A stretch of DNA of 13,238 nt. It comes from Pseudomonadota bacterium. GTDB taxonomy: Bacteria; Bdellovibrionota_C; UBA2361; OMIW01. The first letter of the stretch is position 1, and the number at the start of each line of letters is the position of its first letter. This document shows, piece by piece, positions 14 through 12,303 of this stretch. The DNA is taken from the NCBI GenBank assembly GCA_900299205.1, contig OMIW01000145.1, positions 1 through 13,238 of the forward strand, given 5' to 3'. A program made the position numbers and the translations under genes. The notes below the pieces were generated by a model. The model made no database searches and was not told where the DNA came from. It worked only from the letters and a program-made list of their open reading frames with translations.

Positions 14-41
14 TTGCCCTTACCGCCCCATCCGCTATAAT
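14..41 (+). promoter_or_regulatory. Promoter of the DUF2760-Hsp70 operon
   Basis: A perfect -10 hexamer TATAAT lies at 36-41, preceded after 16 bp by TTGCCC (14-19), which matches four of six bases of the sigma70 -35 consensus. Transcription would begin near position 48 and give a leader of about 97 nt before the ATG at 145. That leader is pyrimidine-rich and contains an ACC/ACA-rich run just before the ribosome binding site, with no riboswitch-like fold that I can see. The call rests on consensus matching and on position in front of a + strand operon. Confidence 0.6.
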
Positions 42-144: not shown

Positions 145-909
145 ATGATTCATATCCTCATCGCCCTCATCCTCCTCGGGGTTCTCGGCGCTCCGTACGT
201 GGTCCCTAATCGCATCCCCGAACCGTTGTTGCCGATAGAATATCAGCCCGCGCTGATAGCACTTTTTGCGGGATATCTGCTGGTAGAGGGAATCCGTCGA
301 CGACGGACTCAGCCGATTCAGACCGGCGATGACCCAACGCGGGCACTGCGTCAAAAGAACAGCGAGCTTGCGGAGCGGGTGCGGGGGCTTGAGGGGGAGT
401 TGGCTTCAGTATCAGGTGAGGTTCGTGAAGGGCGTGAGCGCGCAGAGGGATTGGCGCGCGCGCTCGCCGAGGCGCAGGCTCGTCTGGCAGCGACCCCTCA
501 ACGCTCGGGCGCTCAGGCATCGTCCCAATCGGTCGCTGAGGCGCTCCAGATGCTCTCTCTCCTTCAGCAGCGGGGTCGATTCGTTGATTTCGTCATGCAG
601 GATATCGCGCCGATAGCCAATGAGCAGATCGGAGCAGTCGCCCGGTTTGTTCATCAGGGGTGTCGGTCTGTCTTTGATGAACTGTTCGAGATTAATCCCG
701 TGCGAGAAGAAGGAGAAGGGGCCACGATAACCCTCGCGGGTGCGCCTGATCCCGAGCAGGTGCGTATTCAGGGAAGGACACCGACCTATCCGACCCAGGC
801 GACGATTGTCCATCGGGGGTGGCTCACGAATCGGGTGACGCTACCGAGTGTCACCACCGAGCGGCATCCGCCGTATGTGATCGCACCTGCTGATGCTGAG
901 GTGCGGTAG
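145..909 (+). CDS. DUF2760 protein, membrane-anchored coiled-coil partner of Hsp70 pair
   Basis: This is a 254-residue protein starting at ATG 145, chosen because AGGAG (133-137) sits 7 bases upstream; the open frame extends back to an ATG at 52 without such support. Two hydrophobic segments (about residues 3-20 and 35-50) are followed by an Arg-rich stop-transfer patch (51-54). A long Glu/Arg/Ala-rich stretch (about 64-115) should form a coiled coil. The C-terminal half (about 132-254) matches DUF2760 as I know it: LLQQRGRFVDF (139-149), QIGAVAR (161-167), VHQGC (169-173) and a C-terminal APADAEV. The family's biochemical role is unknown, but it is regularly encoded next to Hsp70-like genes, as here. 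I infer a membrane-docked cofactor or substrate adaptor for the two downstream Hsp70s. The domain call is strong; the role is inference. Confidence 0.85.
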   Translation: MIHILIALILLGVLGAPYVVPNRIPEPLLPIEYQPALIALFAGYLLVEGIRRRRTQPIQTGDDPTRALRQKNSELAERVRGLEGELASVSGEVREGRERAEGLARALAEAQARLAATPQRSGAQASSQSVAEALQMLSLLQQRGRFVDFVMQDIAPIANEQIGAVARFVHQGCRSVFDELFEINPVREEGEGATITLAGAPDPEQVRIQGRTPTYPTQATIVHRGWLTNRVTLPSVTTERHPPYVIAPADAEVR

Positions 910-943
910 GTCTCGGGCCAGCATGACGCTTTCCGTTTTTTCC

Positions 944-970
944 TCCGTGTGTAGGCACACGGATTGTTTT
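944..970 (+). terminator. Hairpin with T-rich tail between gene 1 and the hsp70 genes
   Basis: A perfect 8-bp stem (944-951 with 956-963: TCCGTGTG / CACACGGA) closes a four-base TAGG loop. It is followed at once by TTGTTTT (964-970), which has the layout of an intrinsic terminator. It lies 35 bp after the stop of the DUF2760 gene and ends 31 bp before the ATG of the first hsp70 gene. It could be a leaky terminator or attenuator that lowers hsp70 expression relative to gene 1, or a processing site. A run of six Ts also precedes it (936-941). No new promoter is obvious between it and the next gene. Confidence 0.45.
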
Positions 971-1001
971 GGCAGACGCAGTTATTTATCGCCCTTCAGT
1001 C

Positions 1002-2957
1002 ATGAGCGCATCGTCAACACCTCAATCTCAATCGCCGACACCATCAATCGCCCTCGGCATTGATCTCGGCACTTCCAATACGACTGCATGTATCGCCCAG
1101 GAGGGAGCGGTCGCTCCTCGTGCTATTTCGGTTCGTCAGGTTCAGGGGCCCGGAGTAACGACAGCGAGCACTCTTCTTCCATCGGTGCTCTATCTTCCGA
1201 CGACCGCTGAAAGTGCAACCGCGCCATTTGCGCTGCCGTGGTCTCACGCCACTGATGAGCCGGTTGTTGGTCAGTTTGCTCGCGACCAGGAGGCTCGCAC
1301 CCCCGACCGGGTGATTCGCTCTGCAAAATCGTGGCTCTGCAACCCGGCAATCGATAGGCGCGCTCCGGTGCTGCCGTGGCACGGAGCCGATGACATCGAG
1401 AAACTTTCTCCCTTTGAGGCATCGCGCGCAATCCTCGCGCACGTTCGTCGAGCCTCACACCAGTGGGCGACCGATGAAGGGTTGTCCGATCCAGGCGCCA
1501 TCGGTGCGAATGCTGGATCGATTGTTGTAACCGTGCCCGCCTCGTTTGATGAGGTTGCGCGACAGCTTACTTACGACGCTGCGGTAGCCGCGGGGCTTCC
1601 ATCGTGTACCCTTCTTGAAGAGCCCCAGGCTGCCTTTTATGCGTGGCTCTCTCACCACGAGAGCGATTGGCGTAAGGTCGTCAAGCCGGGCGATACGCTC
1701 ATGGTCTGTGATGTCGGGGGAGGAACCGCTGATTTTTCTCTTATCGCGGTGCTCGAAGAGCAGGGTGAATTGGTGCTGTCTCGGATTGCGGTCGGCGATC
1801 ACATCCTGCTTGGTGGAGACAATATCGATCTAGCGCTTGCGTATCGCGCCCGTTCGCGCCTTCCATCGGGCTCTGCTGAGCTAGATCCGTGGCAGATGGG
1901 AGTGCTTACCGCGCTCGCCCAGACCGCCAAGGAGCGGCTGCTCAGTGATCCCGAGCTAGCTTCCTTCACGATCACGATTCCAACCCGTGGCGCGAATCTC
2001 TTTGCTGCTCCTCTCGAGGTCTCTGTCACCCGGGCGGATATCGAGGAGATCGTTCTCGGTGGATTTTTTCCGATAGTCGAAAGGACCGCTGTTCCCGCGC
2101 AACGGAAAAGTGCGAGCCTCACCGATTTTGGCCTACCGTACGCAGCGGACCCCGCGCTGACGAGACACCTGGCAGCGTTCCTGGCTCGGAGCGCTACCCT
2201 TGTGGAGCAGACCCCGTCACTGGCCTCGCTGCGGGAGCGAGCGGCAGGCGGGTTTATGCGGCCATCCGCGGTGCTTTTCAACGGAGGGGTATTCAATAGC
2301 GATACGCTGCGAGAGCGGGTGCTTTCTCTGCTCCGCGATTGGGTCGCTCCCTTCCCCCTCGAGGAGCTTCACGGCATTGATCGCTCGCAGGCGGTGAGTG
2401 TGGGTGCGGCGTGGTATGCACGGCTTAAGGCATCGGGCACGGGGGTGCGCGTTCGCTCTGCGACGACTAAGTCTTTTTATATCGGGGTCGACAGCTCTCT
2501 CCCCGCGGTGCCGGGGTTCATTCCACCTCTCAAAGGGCTCTGCATCGCTCCACGCGGCGTCGAGGAGGGGAATGATATCACCCTCCCCGCAAAAACATTT
2601 TCCCTCGCATCGGGGGAGGAAGTTCAGTTTCGGCTCTTCGCGAGCGCGGATCGCCCCGATGATCGAGCTGGGGATGAGGTGAGCGATGCCGAACGGTTGC
2701 TCGATGAGCTGGCACCGGTGAGTGCGACCATCAATCCACCGGCGATTCGTTCGGCTGGTACCGATAAAATCGAGGGTTCTGCTCCGTTTGGCAGTGGCCC
2801 AACGCGAATTCCGGTGCAGCTCCATACCCGCCTCACGGAGCTGGGACTCCTCGAGATAACTCTCAGACAAACCACCACCAACGAGACCACCGCCAACCCG
2901 ACAACCACTGCGGATTCGTGGCACCTCGCCTTTGCGACACGTTCGGAGCGCCCGTGA
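1002..2957 (+). CDS. Hsp70-family chaperone ATPase, short form
   Basis: This is a 651-residue Hsp70/DnaK-like protein. The nucleotide-binding domain shows the phosphate-1 motif GIDLGTSNTT (from residue 19), the phosphate-2 motif CDVGGGTADF (236-245) and the adenosine motif VLFNGGVF (424-431). It also has VTVPASFD and LLEEPQAAF segments typical of the actin-like ATPase fold. A beta-rich region with RPDD follows, and the protein ends in a Thr/Asn-rich linker plus one final strand. The usual DnaK substrate-binding domain and lid are not recognisable. ATG 1002 is chosen; a TTG at 969 would add 11 residues but sits inside the hairpin tail. Neither start has a clear ribosome binding site. The stop overlaps the next start by four bases, so the two Hsp70s are translationally coupled and probably act together. 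Confidence 0.9.
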   Translation: MSASSTPQSQSPTPSIALGIDLGTSNTTACIAQEGAVAPRAISVRQVQGPGVTTASTLLPSVLYLPTTAESATAPFALPWSHATDEPVVGQFARDQEARTPDRVIRSAKSWLCNPAIDRRAPVLPWHGADDIEKLSPFEASRAILAHVRRASHQWATDEGLSDPGAIGANAGSIVVTVPASFDEVARQLTYDAAVAAGLPSCTLLEEPQAAFYAWLSHHESDWRKVVKPGDTLMVCDVGGGTADFSLIAVLEEQGELVLSRIAVGDHILLGGDNIDLALAYRARSRLPSGSAELDPWQMGVLTALAQTAKERLLSDPELASFTITIPTRGANLFAAPLEVSVTRADIEEIVLGGFFPIVERTAVPAQRKSASLTDFGLPYAADPALTRHLAAFLARSATLVEQTPSLASLRERAAGGFMRPSAVLFNGGVFNSDTLRERVLSLLRDWVAPFPLEELHGIDRSQAVSVGAAWYARLKASGTGVRVRSATTKSFYIGVDSSLPAVPGFIPPLKGLCIAPRGVEEGNDITLPAKTFSLASGEEVQFRLFASADRPDDRAGDEVSDAERLLDELAPVSATINPPAIRSAGTDKIEGSAPFGSGPTRIPVQLHTRLTELGLLEITLRQTTTNETTANPTTTADSWHLAFATRSERP

Positions 2958-5581
2958 GCCAACCCCGCTATTGCATTGGTATCGATCTCGGCACCACTAA
3001 TTGTGCGCTTGCGTACGTTGACACCCTCGCGGATGGGGATCGCTCACATCTCTTCCCCATCCCGCAAAACCTCTCAGAGACGACCCGTGGTATTGCGGAA
3101 CTTCTCCCTTCAACCGTTGCACTTCTTGATTCAGGCGCGAGACTTGTTGGTCGGGGGGCGCTCGAGCTGATGGCGTTCGGCGCAACTCCGGTGGTTTCGA
3201 GTGCGAAGTCGTGGCTTATCGTTGATACCGTGGATCGACGTGCACCCCTATTGCCGACCGACAGAGTGCTTGCCTCACCCGCGACGAAGGTGAGTCCCGT
3301 TGAGGCATCTGCGATATATCTCATCCATCTGCGCGAACAGTGGGATGAGGTGATGGCGACTTTTGACCCATCGTATAGGCTCGAACATCAGCAGGTCGTC
3401 GTTACCGTTCCAGCATCGTTTGATCCGATCGCGCAAGCGCTTACCCGTGAGGCGATTGAGCTCGCGGGCCTTCCCCCTTCAACGGTCCTGCTTGAGGAGC
3501 CGGTCGCCGCATTTCACCACTTTCTCGAACAGGATGAGGCGGTGCTTTCGCATCTCACGAGGCGCCCAGCGCGGATTCTTGTGGTCGACATCGGAGGAGG
3601 GACGACCGATTGCAGCCTCCTTGAGCTCGATAGGTCGGGAGAGCTGCGGCGAATAAAAGTCGGGGAACACCTCCTGATAGGAGGAGATACCATCGATCTT
3701 GCGATAAGCCATCTCGTCCAGCGGCAGATCGCTGGTACCCTCTCTTCCCGTGCCTGGACCGCAGTGATATACCAGGCTCGACGACTCAAAGAGGCATATT
3801 TATCAGGAGAAATGCCCGCCCACGGAGCCTTTTCGATCACGATTCCCGGGGAAGGGAGCAATCTGTTCGGTTCAACGCAAACAATTACTATCACCCCTGC
3901 CGAGCTCGAAGAGTTGATCCTCGAGGGATTTTTCCCGCTCTGTGAATCGTCGGATACGCCTGGTGCCCGAAGGACTGCGCTCCGCGAGGTTGGGTTGCCA
4001 TTTCCGGCGGATGTGGCGATTACCCGCCATCTGGCCGCCTTTTTGTGGGGGGATGGTGATGGAAGCGGAGAAGCGACCCGCTCCACCATCAAGGTCGATG
4101 CGGTGTTGTATACGGGGGGGACTCTCCTTTCGTCACTGATACAAGATCGGCTCACCCGTTTGCTCACTCGTTGGCAGCGAGGAGTCGCGCCGGTCGTACT
4201 CCCTAATCGCTCACATCTTCTCGCGGTTGCTCACGGTGCGGCCCGTTATGCACTGAGCACTCGGGCCCGTGCACGGCGTGTGGCGATGGCGTACCCGAGG
4301 AGTCTCTATCTCGATATTGGTGAGGGAAACCTCCTTTGTGTTTTTGCTCAGGGACACCACACCGGAGATGAGGTCGTTATTAAGCAGACACCCCTTGTCG
4401 CAACGACAAACCAGCCGGTTCGACTCCAGCTATTCTCCTCAACGATGCGCCCGGATGATCGCGAGGGAGAAATCGTTCCTCGCAATCCGGCCTCGTTTCG
4501 CCCCCTTCCTCCCGCAACGACGGTGCTCGCAACGGAGGGGGACAGCGGAGCGGCGCAGACGATACCGGTACAGCTCGCCATTCATCTCACCGAGGTAGGG
4601 AGCCTCGCGCTCTCGTGTGTCGATCCCGTCGGAGGTCACCGATGGACCGTTGAATTCCACCTTTCAGAGGAAAAGGGGTCATCCCGTAGCCGGAGAAATC
4701 CAGCGTTGGAAAGTGCAATCGACGTCGTGCGAGGAGTGTTTGGAAAAGGACGTGACGACTCTCCGAGTGGGGTGATGACACGGCTCGAAAAAACCCTCGG
4801 AATGCCCCGCGATATCTGGGATATCGGAACGGTGCGGGCATTGTGGGGGCCCCTCGCAGAATCCCTCACCCGTCGGGGTAAAAGTATCAAGCACGAGGTC
4901 GCGTGGCTCCAGTGTGCGGGGCATTCGCTGCGACCGGGGGTAGGGGATGAGTCTGATTCGCTACGCATAAATGAACTGTGGCGGATTCGAGCTGTCGGCA
5001 CTCCGCATCGGCGTGAACCATCGGTGATCCTTGCAACGACGATTGCGTGGCGACGTGTCGCTGCCGGCATATCTGCAGAGAGGCAGAGTGAGCTCGCCGA
5101 GGAGCTAGTAAAAGGGGATCTCAGCAATCCCGAGACGGTTCGTCTTCTCGCGTCGCTCGAGAGATTGACGCACCCAACGAAGCAGAAGATAGCGCAACGC
5201 GCCCTCAAACTTCTCGCAGCGCCTCAGCGAGATGCACAGATCCTCGGCCTCTGGTCGCTCGCGCGGGTTGCAGCAAGAGAGCCGCTTTACGCGGCAAGTC
5301 GGTACGTTCTCCCAGCGGATACCATCGAAGGAATCGTCAAGCGACTCACGACCTCTCTCCAGCTCCCCGAACCACACCGCTCTCGGGCGATTGCGCAACT
5401 TATCCGCCGCACCGGTGATCCAAACCGCGATGTGATCGCCTCGGTGTGGGACGCTGCCGCCGCATCAATCACCGATCAGTGGCTCGTCCTCGCACGGGGA
5501 GAGGGTGATAATCACGACACCGAAGGAGCGTTGCTCGGTGATTCATTGCCGGCAGGGATCCGACTGATGCGGGAGGGGTAG
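2954..5581 (+). CDS. Hsp70-family chaperone ATPase with C-terminal DUF3731 domain
   Basis: This is an 875-residue protein. The GTG at 2954 is chosen because GGAG (2945-2948) lies 5 bases upstream and the codon overlaps the previous stop as GTGA; a GTG at 2918 in the same frame lacks this support. The ATPase domain has GIDLGTTN (9-16), the phosphate-2 motif VVDIGGGTTD (210-219) and an adenosine motif around VLYTGGT (383-389). Residues about 590-860 match DUF3731: LGMPRDIW (from about 615), LRPGVGD (659-665) and AWRRVAAG (698-705). These are followed by alpha-helical, Leu/Ala/Arg-rich repeats. The protein aligns along its first two thirds with the upstream Hsp70 (shared SAKSWL, VTVPASFD, LLEEP, RPDDR, IPVQL) and then continues with DUF3731, so the pair looks like an old duplication. 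Client and partner proteins are unknown. Confidence 0.92.
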   Translation: MSQPRYCIGIDLGTTNCALAYVDTLADGDRSHLFPIPQNLSETTRGIAELLPSTVALLDSGARLVGRGALELMAFGATPVVSSAKSWLIVDTVDRRAPLLPTDRVLASPATKVSPVEASAIYLIHLREQWDEVMATFDPSYRLEHQQVVVTVPASFDPIAQALTREAIELAGLPPSTVLLEEPVAAFHHFLEQDEAVLSHLTRRPARILVVDIGGGTTDCSLLELDRSGELRRIKVGEHLLIGGDTIDLAISHLVQRQIAGTLSSRAWTAVIYQARRLKEAYLSGEMPAHGAFSITIPGEGSNLFGSTQTITITPAELEELILEGFFPLCESSDTPGARRTALREVGLPFPADVAITRHLAAFLWGDGDGSGEATRSTIKVDAVLYTGGTLLSSLIQDRLTRLLTRWQRGVAPVVLPNRSHLLAVAHGAARYALSTRARARRVAMAYPRSLYLDIGEGNLLCVFAQGHHTGDEVVIKQTPLVATTNQPVRLQLFSSTMRPDDREGEIVPRNPASFRPLPPATTVLATEGDSGAAQTIPVQLAIHLTEVGSLALSCVDPVGGHRWTVEFHLSEEKGSSRSRRNPALESAIDVVRGVFGKGRDDSPSGVMTRLEKTLGMPRDIWDIGTVRALWGPLAESLTRRGKSIKHEVAWLQCAGHSLRPGVGDESDSLRINELWRIRAVGTPHRREPSVILATTIAWRRVAAGISAERQSELAEELVKGDLSNPETVRLLASLERLTHPTKQKIAQRALKLLAAPQRDAQILGLWSLARVAAREPLYAASRYVLPADTIEGIVKRLTTSLQLPEPHRSRAIAQLIRRTGDPNRDVIASVWDAAAASITDQWLVLARGEGDNHDTEGALLGDSLPAGIRLMREG

Positions 5582-5585
5582 GCCG

Positions 5586-7646
5586 TTACGGACCGGAATT
5601 AAGGATCTGCTCCGAAAAACCCCGATGGTTCGGAGCACTTAGTGAGCCGCCCCGCGACAGACACTGCGTGTCACTACCCGAAAATCTGGTGAGTACAATC
5701 GTTCGGTCCCTTCGTGGGGAGGATATTCCCGCTCGATGGGTGGGCTCGAGAAACTCCTCAACAGGATTGGCGTACATACCCGCGCGACGGGCGGTATCGA
5801 CAACATCCGGAGTAGTCAGAAGCCATTGGTCGCACGGGGCCATTCCCGCGCGGGTTGCCGATTGGCTCAGTACATCAAGGACATCAACGACTGTCCGGCG
5901 GAATTCTGGAGGGAGCACCACGGACGATTCAACCTGCGAACGCATACGTGCAATCGGTGAATCCTCCGGAGGCTCCGGAACGGTGACAACCTCAACGGGA
6001 ACTCCCGCGTAATACATCAGCGGATCCAGATACTCCTCAAACAGGCTCTTGTAGATAAGGAGCGGGGGGCTCTGAGCCGATCTGCCGGAAACAACGTGGA
6101 CCCGAGCAATAATCTCAGCGGTCCTCCCCGGAAAATCTTTCACAGAGTTTTTAACCCCGAGCCCCAGTGCCACCAACACCATCGGTACGATGCCACCGAT
6201 CACGAAGGCTCGAGTGAGGATATCGGACCCGTGCCCCGCTGCGGCACTCCGCGCAAGATAGCTCCGCAGCACCGTGAGCGTCACCATGACGACCGCAATC
6301 ACCACCCCAGACGAGAGCAGCCATCCCCGCAAAAGAGGCTTAACTGCGCTTCCTCCCGCAATTGACCACCAGCCCGCCACCGTGCCGCCCACCAAGAGAA
6401 GTCCCACAAGCGGCAACGCGAGGAGGATGGGTTCGCTGAGCAGATACCAATGAATCAGTCGCGACCGCTTTGCTTCGGATAGATGGCGTACCTCCCAGAC
6501 CGCATAGTGAGCGGAGATGATCGCGATGGCAGGAAGGATCGGGAGCAGGTACGAGTGGCGCTTCCCCGACGCAACTGAGAAAAGGGCAAGCCCGACGACA
6601 ACCCAGCCAACGAGTATTCCAAGCCCCCGTCTTTGATACCCTCGCCGCACGAGCGCCACGAGAAACACGACGGACCAGGGAAAACAGGTGCGAACTAAAG
6701 ACGGACCGTAAAACCACCACGCTTCGGTGTTGACGTGAGCCCCACCCGCAACACGGTCAGCGTTCTCGAAGAAAATTCGCTCAAGAAACGGAAAGCCCCA
6801 GTGCGCGGCAGCCGGCAGGTACCACAGAAGAGGTATCACAATCGCAAGAACCGCCGGTAAAGGGGGAAGTATCGCCCATCGTAGTGCTCGCCACCCCCCA
6901 AGCCGAATCCAGATGGCGGAAAAAAGGATCGTCGTTGGTAGCACCACCCCAACGGGGCCCCGTGCAAGAACCGCGCACCCTATCAGAAACCAGAGCGCAA
7001 ACTCACACCCCCATCCTCTTTTGCGCCACGTCTGTCGATCTCTCATGTGTGGAAGAATAACCGCGAGACTTCCGGTCGAAAGTGCGGCAAAAACCATGTC
7101 GACGCGGATATTGAGCGACAGGTTGACGAAAAGATGCGACGCGAGGACCATCAGTCCCGCAAGGCGGACCACGGTCCCATCGCCGACGGTCGCTTCATTC
7201 TGCGGATTCCAGCGATCATCACGGTGCGGGTCATCAGTCAACCACCAATCGCTTGTCACAAGCCGCGCGAGCCGCATCGTCGCAAGCACGAGAACCAATC
7301 CTGAGAGGATCGATATCAACCTTCCCACCCACGGAGCTGCGCTCCCGGCGACCCAACCCACCGAAGCGCCGAGCCAATGAAAAAGGGGAGGTTTAGAGGG
7401 TATCTGCCCACCGCGGGTAGGAAAGAGCCAATGAGAAACCATCGTCGACGTGGCCACATCGGGACTGGTAGAGAGCTCCGGTAAGTGAGTCCCCGCACCG
7501 TGAAGCCCGAGTATCGCGGCGATAACGTGGGCTTCACGCGCCTCCGAAGAGCTCGCAATCGGATACGAACTCGCCAGAGCAATCGCAACGATTGCCCACA
7601 GAATAAGCAAGGATCCCGAAGATCGGCTCGAAAAAAGGGGTCGCAT
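5586..7646 (-). CDS. GT39/ArnT-like integral membrane glycosyltransferase
   Basis: This is a 686-residue multi-span membrane protein of the GT-C fold (PMT_2, dolichyl-phosphate-mannose mannosyltransferase / ArnT-like). After a first transmembrane helix (about 12-30) comes an acidic periplasmic loop, SSSEAREAH (32-40), and the family signature SKPPLFHWLGA (84-94). Such loops hold the catalytic acidic residue and bind the polyprenyl-phosphate sugar donor. A further family-like RVD (181-183) lies in the next loop. At least eight more hydrophobic segments follow, then a soluble C-terminal domain of roughly 180 residues. The expected reaction is transfer of a sugar from a polyprenyl-phosphate donor to lipid A, another lipid or protein on the periplasmic side; donor and acceptor cannot be told. 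ATG 7646 has only a weak GGATC upstream. No sugar-activation genes are nearby. Confidence 0.85.
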   Translation of the reverse strand: MRPLFSSRSSGSLLILWAIVAIALASSYPIASSSEAREAHVIAAILGLHGAGTHLPELSTSPDVATSTMVSHWLFPTRGGQIPSKPPLFHWLGASVGWVAGSAAPWVGRLISILSGLVLVLATMRLARLVTSDWWLTDDPHRDDRWNPQNEATVGDGTVVRLAGLMVLASHLFVNLSLNIRVDMVFAALSTGSLAVILPHMRDRQTWRKRGWGCEFALWFLIGCAVLARGPVGVVLPTTILFSAIWIRLGGWRALRWAILPPLPAVLAIVIPLLWYLPAAAHWGFPFLERIFFENADRVAGGAHVNTEAWWFYGPSLVRTCFPWSVVFLVALVRRGYQRRGLGILVGWVVVGLALFSVASGKRHSYLLPILPAIAIISAHYAVWEVRHLSEAKRSRLIHWYLLSEPILLALPLVGLLLVGGTVAGWWSIAGGSAVKPLLRGWLLSSGVVIAVVMVTLTVLRSYLARSAAAGHGSDILTRAFVIGGIVPMVLVALGLGVKNSVKDFPGRTAEIIARVHVVSGRSAQSPPLLIYKSLFEEYLDPLMYYAGVPVEVVTVPEPPEDSPIARMRSQVESSVVLPPEFRRTVVDVLDVLSQSATRAGMAPCDQWLLTTPDVVDTARRAGMYANPVEEFLEPTHRAGISSPRRDRTIVLTRFSGSDTQCLSRGGSLSAPNHRGFSEQILNSGP
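5609..5636. repeat. Inverted repeat at the convergent 3' ends
   Basis: A perfect 8-bp inverted repeat (GCTCCGAA 5609-5616, TTCGGAGC 5629-5636) with a 12-base loop lies 28 bp past the hsp70 stop, inside the last codons of the opposing glycosyltransferase gene. No T-run follows on either strand, so it is a weak terminator candidate. It may still stop or stabilise the hsp70 transcript, because the stop codons are only four bases apart. Confidence 0.4.
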
Positions 7647-8437: not shown

Positions 8438-8470
8438 TTTTGGGATGCTGATAAGGAGTGCGTCCCAAAA
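8438..8470. repeat. Inverted repeat between the convergent lipoprotein and tRNA genes
   Basis: An 11-bp stem, TTTTGGGATGC (8438-8448) with GCGTCCCAAAA (8460-8470), contains one T-G wobble and an 11-base loop. It sits between the lipoprotein stop (8392) and the tRNA 3' end (8497), where a two-way terminator would be expected. The Ts lie 5' and the As 3' of the stem, which is the reverse of a standard intrinsic terminator. I therefore call it an inverted repeat of unknown role. Confidence 0.5.
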
Positions 8471-8496
8471 GGCACTGGATAGGGACGAAGGGAGGA

Positions 8497-8573
<77 letters not shown>

Positions 8574-8583
8574 ACACGCCCAA

Positions 8584-8612
8584 AGGATAACTCGTCAGCA
8601 CCTATGCGTCAA
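8584..8612 (-). promoter_or_regulatory. Sigma70 promoter of tRNA-fMet
   Basis: On the - strand TTGACG (8612-8607) is followed after exactly 17 bp by TATCCT (8589-8584). These match five and four of six consensus bases. Transcription would start about 7 bases further, near 8577, giving a leader of only a few bases before the mature tRNA 5' end at 8573. A GC-rich stretch separates the -10 box from the gene, suggesting a discriminator that could respond to growth rate. Confidence 0.8.
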
Positions 8613-8971
8613 GGGTGAGGGGGCGGGGTTTGGAGAAAAAGTAACGAAGGTAGCTTTAATATTGCTCCCCTGGGCGCGTTCAAGAGCAGATTCACGGATG
8701 TTCCGGTTGTTGTCGCGTCTCCCGTCCTTTCAATACCCCGACGTGGCGACGGTTGGATTGAGGTCCTTCCGTGGACAGGTGTGGTGGCGCGGTAATGTTT
8801 CGTAAAGAGGTATCGGCCGAGGTCTCCGGCACGTTGGGCGATGTGGGTGCTCAATGTGTGTAAGCGGCCAGCCCAGTGGATCCCCTCGGGGCTCTCTGTC
8901 TTGTTTGGCCTCAAGACGAGAGGTGTACCCCCAAAGTTAGCCACCTCATATCGGTCGAGAGTCAGAGGCTG
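8613..8971. other. Stretch without a convincing gene, between tRNA-fMet and recombinase
   Basis: I find no supportable gene here. A - strand frame of 111 codons with a GTG start (8609-8944) and a + strand frame of 115 codons (8458-8805) both cross the region. They are Pro/Thr/Arg-rich, match no family I know, and run into the tRNA promoter or the tRNA itself. The DNA may be the decayed remains of genes between the tRNA and the recombinase. No tRNA-derived direct repeat that could serve as an attachment site is visible. Confidence 0.4.
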
Positions 8972-9010: not shown

Positions 9011-10006
9011 CTATAACCCGATCTTCCCGGCAGCATTATCGATAAACAGATTCCCCGCCCGAATATAGCGCCGGAGCATCATGAGGTTTCGATGACCTGT
9101 CTGATCCTGAATCGCCCGCTCGGGAACTCCGCATAGTGCCGCCTGTGTCGCCAGTCCTGCACGGAGCGAGTGCCCAGCGTAGTTTGTACTATCGCGACTT
9201 GCGAGGACGAGGGTGCGCTTTACCACTCGGGCTACCGTCTTGTCGGTAAGCCGACGGGGACTTACCCGACCGGTGCGGCTCACTGCCCGAAACACCGGTC
9301 CGTGGGTGATACTGCCCTGCTCAATCCAATCGCAATACGCCCTCACCGGGCATGTCTCATGCCGCTCGCCGAAGGGGATACCGACTGTCCTGCCACGTCC
9401 CTCCTGATCGGTCTTACTGAAGCGAATCGTAATCGAGAGTCCGTGAGGCGAGGAGACGATATCGGTCACGTCGAGCCGGACCAGCTCGCTTCGACGCATC
9501 GCTCCCGCAAATCCAATAAGGATCAGGGCTCTATCACGTACCCCGAGGAGAGAGTCCGGGAGCGCTGCAAGCATCTCCTGAATATCGCACAGGAGGGTTG
9601 GTAGCTTGCCCCGAGGGGTGAAACCAAAGGTGCGCTTGATGCCATCCCATACTGCGCGAACGGCGGCGTGTTTGACTGGCGTTTCAAACCCCCGAGAACG
9701 GTGCACCTCGGATATGGTTACGAGTCGCCGCGCTATCGTCGTCGTCCGCCTGTTCCCGCGATTGGCCAAAAAGGTGACGTAAAGGGCGACTGTCTCGGGG
9801 GCCGCAGGAAGGGGGGCGCGATCAGCAGCGCGACACCATTCCGAGAAGTGTGCCCAATCGGCTCGATAGGCGCGAATGGTGTTTTGTGCGCGGGAGCGAT
9901 ACGCATAATCGAGAGCTTCGCGCTCAATTTCTGATAATTCAATGACCTCATGTCCAACCTCATCACGAAGAGACGGAAGCGGGGATTGGCCAATTTTTTC
10001 ATCCAT
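9011..10006 (-). CDS. Tyrosine recombinase / phage-type integrase
   Basis: This is a 331-residue site-specific recombinase that cuts and rejoins DNA through a covalent phosphotyrosine. The N-terminal SAM-like DNA-binding domain spans about residues 30-125 (with NTIRAYRADW at 42-51). The catalytic domain spans about 140-320. The catalytic set is complete: Arg171 in RRSELV, Lys198 in RFSKTDQ, His279 and Arg282 in HSLRAG, His305 in TGHRN and Tyr314 in RRYIR. The length is normal. ATG 10006 lacks a ribosome binding site, so it may rely on translation from the upstream phosphoribosyltransferase-like gene, whose stop lies 27 bp away. It does not look like chromosomal XerC/XerD, and no attachment site or phage gene is beside it. 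It could belong to an integrated element, cassette system or decayed island. Confidence 0.9.
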   Translation of the reverse strand: MDEKIGQSPLPSLRDEVGHEVIELSEIEREALDYAYRSRAQNTIRAYRADWAHFSEWCRAADRAPLPAAPETVALYVTFLANRGNRRTTTIARRLVTISEVHRSRGFETPVKHAAVRAVWDGIKRTFGFTPRGKLPTLLCDIQEMLAALPDSLLGVRDRALILIGFAGAMRRSELVRLDVTDIVSSPHGLSITIRFSKTDQEGRGRTVGIPFGERHETCPVRAYCDWIEQGSITHGPVFRAVSRTGRVSPRRLTDKTVARVVKRTLVLASRDSTNYAGHSLRAGLATQAALCGVPERAIQDQTGHRNLMMLRRYIRAGNLFIDNAAGKIGL

Positions 10007-10033: not shown

Positions 10034-10603
10034 TTATCCGATCGATGAAAGCAGGCGAACCGGTGCTCCGGTGAGAGCTGATACAATCGGGACCGGGCCG
10101 GGGCCAAAGGTCCGATCAATCAGAGTCGCCCAACAGAGCACCGATATCCCCTTGAGGGTCGCCCGGGTATGGGCCTCGAGGCTTGAATGGGCGGTTGTGA
10201 TGACATCAGTCACCAGAACTGCATTGAGACCCCGAAATCGCTCGGCGTAGCCATTTGAAAACTTGCTTTGAAGATACTGCTCAAGCGGTATCTCCTCTTT
10301 TGATCGGCTGATCTCCGAATAGATGGCGCAGAGGCGCTCCGCAAAAAAACTGTATCCGCCAGGCAGACGCAAAAAAAGGTGGACATCAAGCGGAGCGACA
10401 ACATTTTTGATCCGCCGGGCAACATATTCGGCGCACGCATCGAGCTGATCGTCCTCGAGGTCTTCTACGCGGTAATAGACATGACTTTCGCTCCGCCCCC
10501 CAATCGGGACCGGCTCCTCAAAACGCTCGGTAATACCATCAAAGATGGCCTGAATATCCTCTGAGCTTACTTCACCTGATGAACGATCCACATAACCTCC
10601 CAT
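10034..10603 (-). CDS. Phosphoribosyltransferase-like protein
   Basis: This is a 189-residue soluble protein. Residues 128-141, AVLVTDVITTAHSS, match the PRPP-binding motif of type I phosphoribosyltransferases (hydrophobic strand, acidic residue, TT loop, small residues). The segment after it (LEAHTRATLKG, then ISVLCWATLIDR, about 142-164) resembles the helix and strand that follow in orotate phosphoribosyltransferase. The classical TTGGS loop reads TTAHS, and the first acidic position is Thr, so catalysis may be altered or lost. The N-terminal 75 residues are acidic and not recognisable. ATG 10603 lacks a clear ribosome binding site; a GTG at 10591 has GGAGG 4 bases upstream and would shorten the protein by four residues. 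The recombinase gene follows after 27 bp on the same strand, suggesting co-transcription. Confidence 0.6.
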   Translation of the reverse strand: MGGYVDRSSGEVSSEDIQAIFDGITERFEEPVPIGGRSESHVYYRVEDLEDDQLDACAEYVARRIKNVVAPLDVHLFLRLPGGYSFFAERLCAIYSEISRSKEEIPLEQYLQSKFSNGYAERFRGLNAVLVTDVITTAHSSLEAHTRATLKGISVLCWATLIDRTFGPGPVPIVSALTGAPVRLLSSIG

Positions 10604-10863: not shown

Positions 10864-12303
10864 TCATCTTCGCTGACCCCACACCACAATTTTACCCGAT
10901 TGAAAAGCCGCAGAGTACCGCTCTTGGAACATTGCCCAATCATCGGCTCCAAATTCAGGCCCGGGCTCTCCTCCCCACGGTGGATCATGAGCAACGATCC
11001 ATTCGGGTTGATGGGCCTGAAACCACCAACTGGCATTTCCTTTTTTGATCAAGGAAAGAGCCGATGGGTGGATCAGCCCGTGCATGTCGATGATCTTGAG
11101 TTGGGAAATATAACCGATATATCCGATCTCGGCGCAGGCGATCCGGTCGGTCGGATTCGAATGGAGAGCAAGCCAATTAGCGACTGTTTTGTAATCGTGG
11201 CTATTGTAATAGGGGGGTTGTAACAGTACCCCCGCTGAGCCGTAAAGTGCTGCGAGCCCAAGGCCGCAGAGCGTCCAGTTTCGCTCGTGTGTCGCATGGG
11301 GTGCTGTAGGAGCCCTCCCCAGCATCTTCGTAAGTTTTCTTTTCGCCAATTCAAACACCTCAATACCGCCAAGAAGAGCAGATAAATTGAATGCTACAAA
11401 TGACGGGGTGAAGTACCAAAAATAAGCTTCCGGCGCCGATATCGCAGTATATACAGCCATTTGTGTGATCGCGAAGATCATCGCGAAGGTAAGCCCAACC
11501 TGTTGCCTCAGCAGGTATTTGCGAATCAAAAACCAAAAGGCGAGGGGGATGGTCACTTCCGGAGCTGGACGGAACCTAAGCCACGCAATAAGCCAGGGGC
11601 GCCGCGTTGCCCACCATCCGATCCGTGATTGTGCCATTTTAACCCCAATGCTCGATGGGATCAGATCCCCTCCGAGGAGTATGACGATACCAAGGAGTGG
11701 CAACATGACCGCGATAAATGAGCAACACGCTCTGGTGCTAGCCCATAACCGCGGGCCAGCTACCCTCCCACACCAAGTGTATCCCAAGAGGATTGCAAAA
11801 AGGGCCAAGCCGTCGGGGCGGAAAAGACTTCCCAGCGCAGCAAATGCTCCCGCGCGTCCCCACCATTGTCGCTCTACTGCCCACGCGCATAAAAATATAG
11901 TTCCCACAAAACACGAGGTCTCCATTCCCACAGCTTGCAGGAGGGTGCTTTCAAACATCGCGGTTAATGCAATCACCAAACCGAGGCCGGGGCGGTGTTC
12001 GCGAAACATGGCAAAGAGGACACAGCCGAGCAAAGCCATACCACTGGCGTAAGCCACAAGGAGGCTATTCTCTCCGCTAAGTCCCATAAGTCGCAGCCCA
12101 GCGAGGAGGAGCGGGAAGAGGAAAGATGTACACGGATTAGACTGCTCTCCGAGATTATATGTCCAGCCATTACCCCGCATGAGATTGTCGGCAACCCGCA
12201 GAAAAATGAATCCGTCATCGACCAGCGCATGACGGAGACCAAAGACAGCGACGAATGCGGCTCCTATAATCAAAAAAAAGGGCATGGTCCGAATCGTCCT
12301 CAC
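10864..12303 (-). CDS. GT-C type membrane glycosyltransferase, arabinofuranosyl/mannosyl-transferase-like
   Basis: This is a 479-residue protein with about nine or ten transmembrane segments. The start is GTG 12303, backed by AGAGG (12314-12310) six bases upstream; an ATG six codons later has poorer spacing. After the first helix (about 7-27) the first loop has VDDGFIFLRVADNL (28-41) and then GNGWTYN, followed by NPCTSFLFPLLL. This resembles the DDAF...R.ADNL.RG.G..YNPGE...TNP signature of AftB-like and related GT-C enzymes that use polyprenyl-phosphate sugars. The soluble C-terminal domain carries AEIGYIGYISQLKIIDMHGLIHP-type features around residue 405, also found in that group. It should act on the periplasmic side of the inner membrane, and the sugar and acceptor are unknown. 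It differs in family branch from the other glycosyltransferase in the window, and no partner genes are adjacent. Confidence 0.8.
   Translation of the reverse strand: MRTIRTMPFFLIIGAAFVAVFGLRHALVDDGFIFLRVADNLMRGNGWTYNLGEQSNPCTSFLFPLLLAGLRLMGLSGENSLLVAYASGMALLGCVLFAMFREHRPGLGLVIALTAMFESTLLQAVGMETSCFVGTIFLCAWAVERQWWGRAGAFAALGSLFRPDGLALFAILLGYTWCGRVAGPRLWASTRACCSFIAVMLPLLGIVILLGGDLIPSSIGVKMAQSRIGWWATRRPWLIAWLRFRPAPEVTIPLAFWFLIRKYLLRQQVGLTFAMIFAITQMAVYTAISAPEAYFWYFTPSFVAFNLSALLGGIEVFELAKRKLTKMLGRAPTAPHATHERNWTLCGLGLAALYGSAGVLLQPPYYNSHDYKTVANWLALHSNPTDRIACAEIGYIGYISQLKIIDMHGLIHPSALSLIKKGNASWWFQAHQPEWIVAHDPPWGGEPGPEFGADDWAMFQERYSAAFQSGKIVVWGQRR

Follow-up and report, generated by a model that had tools for sequence, protein, structure and literature searches.

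A DUF2760 protein and two atypical Hsp70s are inherited as one bacterial unit, probably a membrane-tethered chaperone set

What do two Hsp70-type proteins do in a bacterium that has dnaK elsewhere in its genome, and what is the part of the DUF2760 protein encoded directly in front of them? The question is raised by the window analysed here (the whole of contig OMIW01000145.1, 13,238 bp, of a 2.45-Mb draft genome), which begins, after 144 bp of upstream DNA, with three same-strand genes for a DUF2760 protein, an Hsp70 that we call HspA and an Hsp70 with a DUF3731 region that we call HspB, in this order and with a GTGA overlap joining the two Hsp70 genes, as the sequence-only reading had described. 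Family membership is clear, since the first product scores 110.5 for PF10816 and HspB 146.3 for PF12531, each against a gathering cut-off of 25, and both Hsp70s lie within the Hsp70 superfamily (PF00012; 56.9 and 60.3 bits, curated cut-off 20.6). The earlier statement that the window holds neither a J-protein nor GrpE is also correct; the genome has grpE beside dnaK (contig C102) and a J-domain protein (contig C152).

The 2021 review of bacterial Hsp70 machines recognises three types only, DnaK, HscA and HscC (PMC8215388), to which the present set adds two Hsp70 families and a dedicated partner, DUF2760 being found in 68 of the 617 genomes surveyed below. None of the papers searched names DUF2760 or DUF3731, and Pfam assigns a function to neither. 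The unit has hardly been studied so far and is probably a dedicated protein-handling machine.

Linkage and co-inheritance of the three genes

A DUF2760 profile scan of 84,980 species genomes gave at least 499 confirmed stretches, and the locus counts use the best 80, which span many phyla. In 77 of these 80 loci HspA is the next gene downstream of DUF2760, in the same orientation, with median gaps of ~34 nt between DUF2760 and HspA and 27.5 nt between HspA and HspB; the expectation that DUF2760 sits beside Hsp70 genes is thus borne out, and the reverse pattern, in which the genes are mostly unlinked, was not found. The three exceptions are all Victivallales (L067, L071 and L079), in whose genomes HspA and HspB are present elsewhere; DUF2760 there stands apart from the Hsp70 genes behind a DinG-like helicase, and L067 has a Mem_trans transporter as well. 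Among 18 genomes checked, namely 15 in which no full HspB was seen beside DUF2760 and the three Victivallales, DUF3731 was found in 15. The DUF2760-HspA pair is the core of the unit and occurs alone on the Thiodictyon syntrophicum plasmid pTs485. By name, the set is found in Pseudomonadota, Myxococcota, Verrucomicrobiota, Planctomycetota, Acidobacteria, Nitrospirae and others; its distribution is patchy and some copies are on plasmids. Very long open reading frames (ORFs), e.g. the 1466-aa HspB ORF of L114, were rejected as fusions and read as frame overruns, since HspA and DUF2760 occupy other frames of that stretch. In a tree rooted with one DnaK outgroup HspB forms a single clade (0.99), and the root among HspA sequences could not be placed.

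Co-occurrence was surveyed in three phyla: that of the window (45 genomes), a second judged to be Pseudomonadota from its seed genome (G050, of locus L055) and from members common to Magnetococcales loci (398 genomes), and a third seeded by locus L080 of a Verrucomicrobiia metagenome-assembled genome (174 genomes). Of the 617 genomes, 67 have both DUF2760 and DUF3731, one has only the former, one only the latter and 548 have neither (Fisher P 8e-88, which overstates independence since the genomes are related). In the window's phylum the two are found in the identical 9 of 45 genomes, always on one contig. The second phylum has DUF2760 in 28 of 398 genomes and DUF3731 in 27 of those 28, the contig of the exception (G061) stopping 84 bp past HspA, and an HspA profile (E<1e-60) matches exactly the same 28. 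In the third, DUF2760 occurs in 31 and DUF3731 in 32 of 174 genomes, all 31 in common, the extra DUF3731 being a broken fragment with a stop; in 14 of the 31 the two genes are separated, either by 258 kb of a single contig (G540) or by lying on different contigs, some of the latter cases perhaps being assembly breaks. The three genes are obligately co-inherited as one unit, and linkage and co-occurrence together strongly support the earlier claim of a dedicated set of Hsp70s that has a partner gene to itself.

Architecture of the Hsp70s and of the DUF2760 protein

The AlphaFold model of HspB (pTM 0.66) comprises a nucleotide-binding domain (NBD) up to residue ~440, a beta sandwich at 447-570 and, for DUF3731, a C-terminal helical solenoid at 583-861. 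Residues 3-576 of this model superpose in one alignment on the NBD and the beta part of the substrate-binding domain (SBD-beta) of DnaK and BiP (9a5j, Z 38.7, 461 residues, 3.8 A; DnaK 7kru_B, 463 residues, root-mean-square deviation 4.3 A; Foldseek E ~1e-22), with the two domains docked as in ATP-state DnaK. The C-terminal region of HspA is homologous to the HspB beta domain (hhalign 5.5e-41), after which the protein ends without a lid. An SBD-beta is predicted for HspB by its model and for HspA by homology to HspB, whereas the sequence-only reading had seen no standard substrate-binding domain in either. The latter view reflects a limit of sequence profiles, which give no match of the HspA and HspB beta domain to the SBD of DnaK; what stands of it is that the alpha-helical lid of canonical DnaK-type Hsp70s is missing in HspA and has its place taken by the DUF3731 solenoid in HspB.

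Residues equivalent to D8, T11, K70, E171, D194 and T199 (DnaK numbering) are conserved in 100% of 71 HspA and 52 HspB sequences, so that the ATPase residues are intact. In DnaK, R167, N170 and D393 contact the J-domain (structure 5nro). At the N170 position all 123 homologues carry E, the R167 position is T, V or I in HspA and R in 34 of the 52 HspB, D393 is represented by G in 69 of the 71 HspA, and the linker DVLLLDV is replaced. The canonical linker and the main J-contact residues are thus lost; from these alignments we infer that HspA and HspB are active ATPases with altered or absent J-coupling, and the pair probably works independently of J-proteins and GrpE. None of the NCBIfam models for DnaK, HscA and YegD reaches its cut-off (best 81.9 bits against 620), which by those curated values places both proteins in the Hsp70 superfamily outside DnaK, HscA and YegD. 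The match lists of the window's Hsp70s contain no HscC model, and profile search gives them weak MreB-like matches.

The model of the DUF2760 protein (pTM 0.50) opens at the N-terminus with a pair of hydrophobic helices, followed by a long coiled-coil helix (residues 64-116), two further helices (127-144, 159-180) and a small beta domain (181-235). Hydropathy predicts at least one transmembrane (TM) helix in 59 of 79 DUF2760 proteins, the start codons of the relatives having been guessed, and K/R exceed D/E after the helix; relatives lacking it show, by eye, a short amphipathic-looking N-terminal helix. The chaperone unit is probably membrane-tethered. Invariant residues include Q141, R145, D148, F149, E191, G210, H223, G225, W226 and P234, and no J-domain is apparent, there being no DnaJ match among the 25 families listed for 79 members and no HPD among the conserved columns. 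Distance matrices of DUF2760 correlate with those of the NBDs at 0.84 and 0.85 and with those of the SBDs at 0.77 and 0.73, a weak hint that is compatible with an action on the ATPase domains.

How the unit may work, and the alternatives

We propose that the membrane-anchored DUF2760 protein and the two ATPase-competent atypical Hsp70s act as one functional unit, in a manner sketched here and held, as a whole, with moderate confidence. DUF2760 would be an inner-membrane protein whose domain faces the cytosol, and it may bring HspA, its core partner, and HspB to clients as these emerge at the membrane or within it; an action on the NBDs could let it replace a J-protein and/or GrpE. Two diverged Hsp70s that work as a set, one of them with an enlarged C-terminus, are known from the eukaryotic Hsp70-Hsp110 pair. 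By analogy HspB, with a solenoid instead of a lid, might be a partner or exchange-type Hsp70 to HspA as Hsp110 is to Hsp70; the likeness lies in the set of two diverged Hsp70s, whereas the C-terminal extension is here of an unrelated kind.

Neighbour clustering over ~90 loci gave only lineage-specific neighbours (CHASE-GGDEF and exonuclease genes in Vibrio, MlaE/ABC in some deltas, sensor kinases, SDR) and no conserved client gene, nothing being universal beyond the three genes. Since no family travels with the unit, a single client of its own, with a gene close by, is unlikely, and the clients are probably a class of membrane or envelope proteins and not the product of one neighbouring gene.

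Several observations weigh against this proposal. About a quarter of the DUF2760 proteins show no clear TM helix, Foldseek returns no significant PDB match for the DUF2760 model, the mirror-tree difference is small, the NBDs simply being better conserved, and the case for J-independence consists of residue changes. In many loci, moreover, DUF2760 has no HspB next to it, and neither the searched genomes of L090 and L095 nor the Thiodictyon plasmid contain HspB, so that the unit can do without it; in two genomes of the window's phylum the locus holds DUF2760 and HspB only.

Among known systems, the closest functional parallel is E. coli HscC with its tail-anchored partners DjlB and DjlC (PMC8215388), likewise a specialised Hsp70 beside dnaK with a plasma-membrane partner, no GrpE, a patchy distribution and an unknown client; the present set differs in having two Hsp70s, no alpha lid, changed J-contact residues and, as partner, DUF2760 instead of a J-protein. 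The Fe-S cluster chaperone HscA is the best named model match (76-82 bits, over the NBD), but these values are far below cut-offs of 620-709 bits, the window has no HscB or Isc genes and the conserved linker is missing. With DnaK-DnaJ-GrpE the set shares the catalytic NBD residues and the SBD-beta fold, in contrast to which stand the lidless HspA, the solenoid of HspB, the absence of the DVLLLDV linker and a separate grpE-dnaK in the same genome. We tentatively suggest, with limited confidence, that a fourth prokaryotic Hsp70 class may exist beside DnaK, HscA and HscC, namely a membrane-bound Hsp70 pair that has DUF2760 in the role of J-protein and/or GrpE and, in the place of a client lid, either nothing or a helical solenoid. 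Should the ATPase cycle be driven by DUF2760, this protein would represent a new kind of Hsp70 regulator, and the lidless Hsp70s would allow a test of how much of the chaperone cycle depends on a lid, on the conserved linker and on a J-protein. DUF2760 and DUF3731, two Pfam families of unknown function, would gain a concrete, testable role.

A narrower account of DUF2760 is that it is a membrane-tethered, GrpE-like nucleotide exchange factor that works on the NBDs through its coiled coil, its helix pair and its C-terminal beta domain. The modelled order of long helix (64-116), helices (127-180) and beta domain (181-235) does match the layout of GrpE, VIA-align lists GrpE structures (1dkg_A and 9blt_B, Z 4.8-4.9) for the long helix only, and the hhalign alignment is collinear, though not significant (P 0.16); since GrpE is not among the 25 Pfam families listed for the 79 members, the long coiled coil is missing in most homologues and coiled-coil matches are common, we consider this account unlikely. 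We think it similarly improbable that the unit is an HscC-like membrane chaperone served by a J-protein encoded elsewhere, with DUF2760 as a client adaptor only. HscC does have membrane-anchored partners, DjlB/DjlC, and its presumed targets are membrane proteins (PMC8215388), and a J-domain protein is present in the genome, but the change of N170 to E in 123 of 123 homologues, the loss of R167 in HspA and of the linker, and the absence of J-proteins among the recurrent neighbour families examined all speak against it.

Rather doubtful, too, is the notion that the set is not a folding chaperone at all but an ATP-driven switch or assembly scaffold, with actin-fold ATPases held by a membrane anchor, for instance to regulate the envelope or the surface. 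The weak MreB-like matches would fit such a role, as would the activation of the VC1375 promoter by HapR (PMC10328515) and the listing of VC1374 as biofilm-repressed (PMC9201469), whereas a full NBD and SBD-beta, docked as in ATP-state DnaK, would not. Finally, the patchy distribution and the plasmid copies could be taken to mean that the genes merely hitchhike in a horizontally transferred operon with no joint function. This is very improbable and largely refuted by the unlinked cases, for genomes in which the genes are separated still keep all parts, which argues for a joint function beyond hitchhiking.

In Vibrio cholerae the proposed chaperone unit most likely corresponds to VC1375-VC1373, judging from the 'DnaK-related' annotations of VC1373 and VC1374, the operon VC1373-1375 and the divergent CHASE-GGDEF gene of other vibrios. 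Both in vivo and in vitro, the quorum-sensing regulator HapR directly activates the VC1375 promoter (PMC10328515), and VC1374 is an entry in a list of genes repressed in biofilms (PMC9201469). In Thiodictyon a DnaK-related protein, not matched by accession to the plasmid copy, is more abundant in the dark (PMC6413534). The reports on both organisms assign no function to the unit.

Window features and neighbouring genes

Table 1. Features of the DUF2760-HspA-HspB locus (window positions in nt).
Feature	Position	Strand	Product, extent or remark	Basis
DUF2760 protein gene	145..909	+	254 aa	PF10816 E 6.2e-32, AlphaFold pLDDT 85, hydropathy
DUF2760 TM hairpin	148-201, 235-306	+	aa 2-19 and 31-54	AlphaFold helix order, hydropathy
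DUF2760 coiled-coil helix	334-492	+	aa 64-116	AlphaFold model
DUF2760 domain	538-900	+	aa 132-252	PF10816
HspA, Hsp70-type	1002..2957	+	NBD ~1050-2426, lidless beta domain ~2463-2945	PF00012 E 1.6e-15
HspB, Hsp70 + DUF3731	2954..5581	+		PF00012 E 1.4e-16, PF12531 (DUF3731) E 1.9e-42, AlphaFold pLDDT 84
HspB NBD	2954-4273	+		PF00012, AlphaFold
HspB SBD-beta	~4292-4663	+		AlphaFold, superposition on DnaK
HspB DUF3731 helical solenoid	~4700-5536	+	Pfam match 4883-5566	PF12531, AlphaFold
GTGA overlap	2954..2957	+	HspA stop / HspB start	sequence
8-bp hairpin then TTGTTTT	944..963	+	terminator-like, possibly partial attenuation	between DUF2760 and HspA; stability no greater than shuffles
Promoter-like TTGCCC-16-TATAAT	14..41	+		number of such sites in window at chance level

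The spacing makes co-transcription of all three genes plausible. The 'one good promoter' of the sequence-only reading did not hold up: the site in question is one of 6 promoter-like sites in the window, against 5.3 +/- 2.2 in shuffled sequences, and the gap from DUF2760 to HspA contains a terminator-like hairpin. This hairpin was rejected as a special RNA (fold z 0.13 against shuffles). For HspA, the start ATG1002 is more likely than the alternative TTG969.

Phage origin was rejected, there being no DUF2760 in phage records and no confirmed HspB relative in IMG/VR (single-sequence query), as was a defence role, with no PADLOC match of note and only the Thiodictyon plasmid copy in a defence-like region. 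On that plasmid (L032) DUF2760-HspA lies among genes annotated as anti-phage (DUF1156, PLD-like), VapC and a TIR-domain protein. On the Bradyrhizobium plasmid pCB82_1 (L034) a groES-groEL pair follows DUF2760-HspA-HspB by ~1 kb, and in L023:5399-7249 and L026:4479-6434 (genomes G014 and G016) the operon has a fourth gene, for an MnmC-like tRNA-modification enzyme (Methyltransf_30 + DAO), which overlaps HspB at its end. In five vibrio loci (L036, L046, L084, L086 and L111) DUF2760 has as its divergent neighbour a gene for a CHASE-GGDEF diguanylate cyclase, a layout matching that of V. cholerae VC1375/VC1376 with a HapR site between.

In the remainder of the window a tRNA-Met (8497-8573, minus strand) adjoins a XerC/D-like tyrosine recombinase (9011-10006, minus strand), a layout frequent at integrated elements; the ORF at 8458-8805 over the tRNA is probably an artefact. 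Two large multi-TM proteins (5586-7646 and 10864-12303, both minus strand) have weak glycosyltransferase matches, ArnT-like (NF009784, 56.7 bits) and arabinofuranosyltransferase-like (22.8 bits), and the product of 10034-10603 (minus strand) has a weak PyrE-like phosphoribosyltransferase match (E 7.5e-4).

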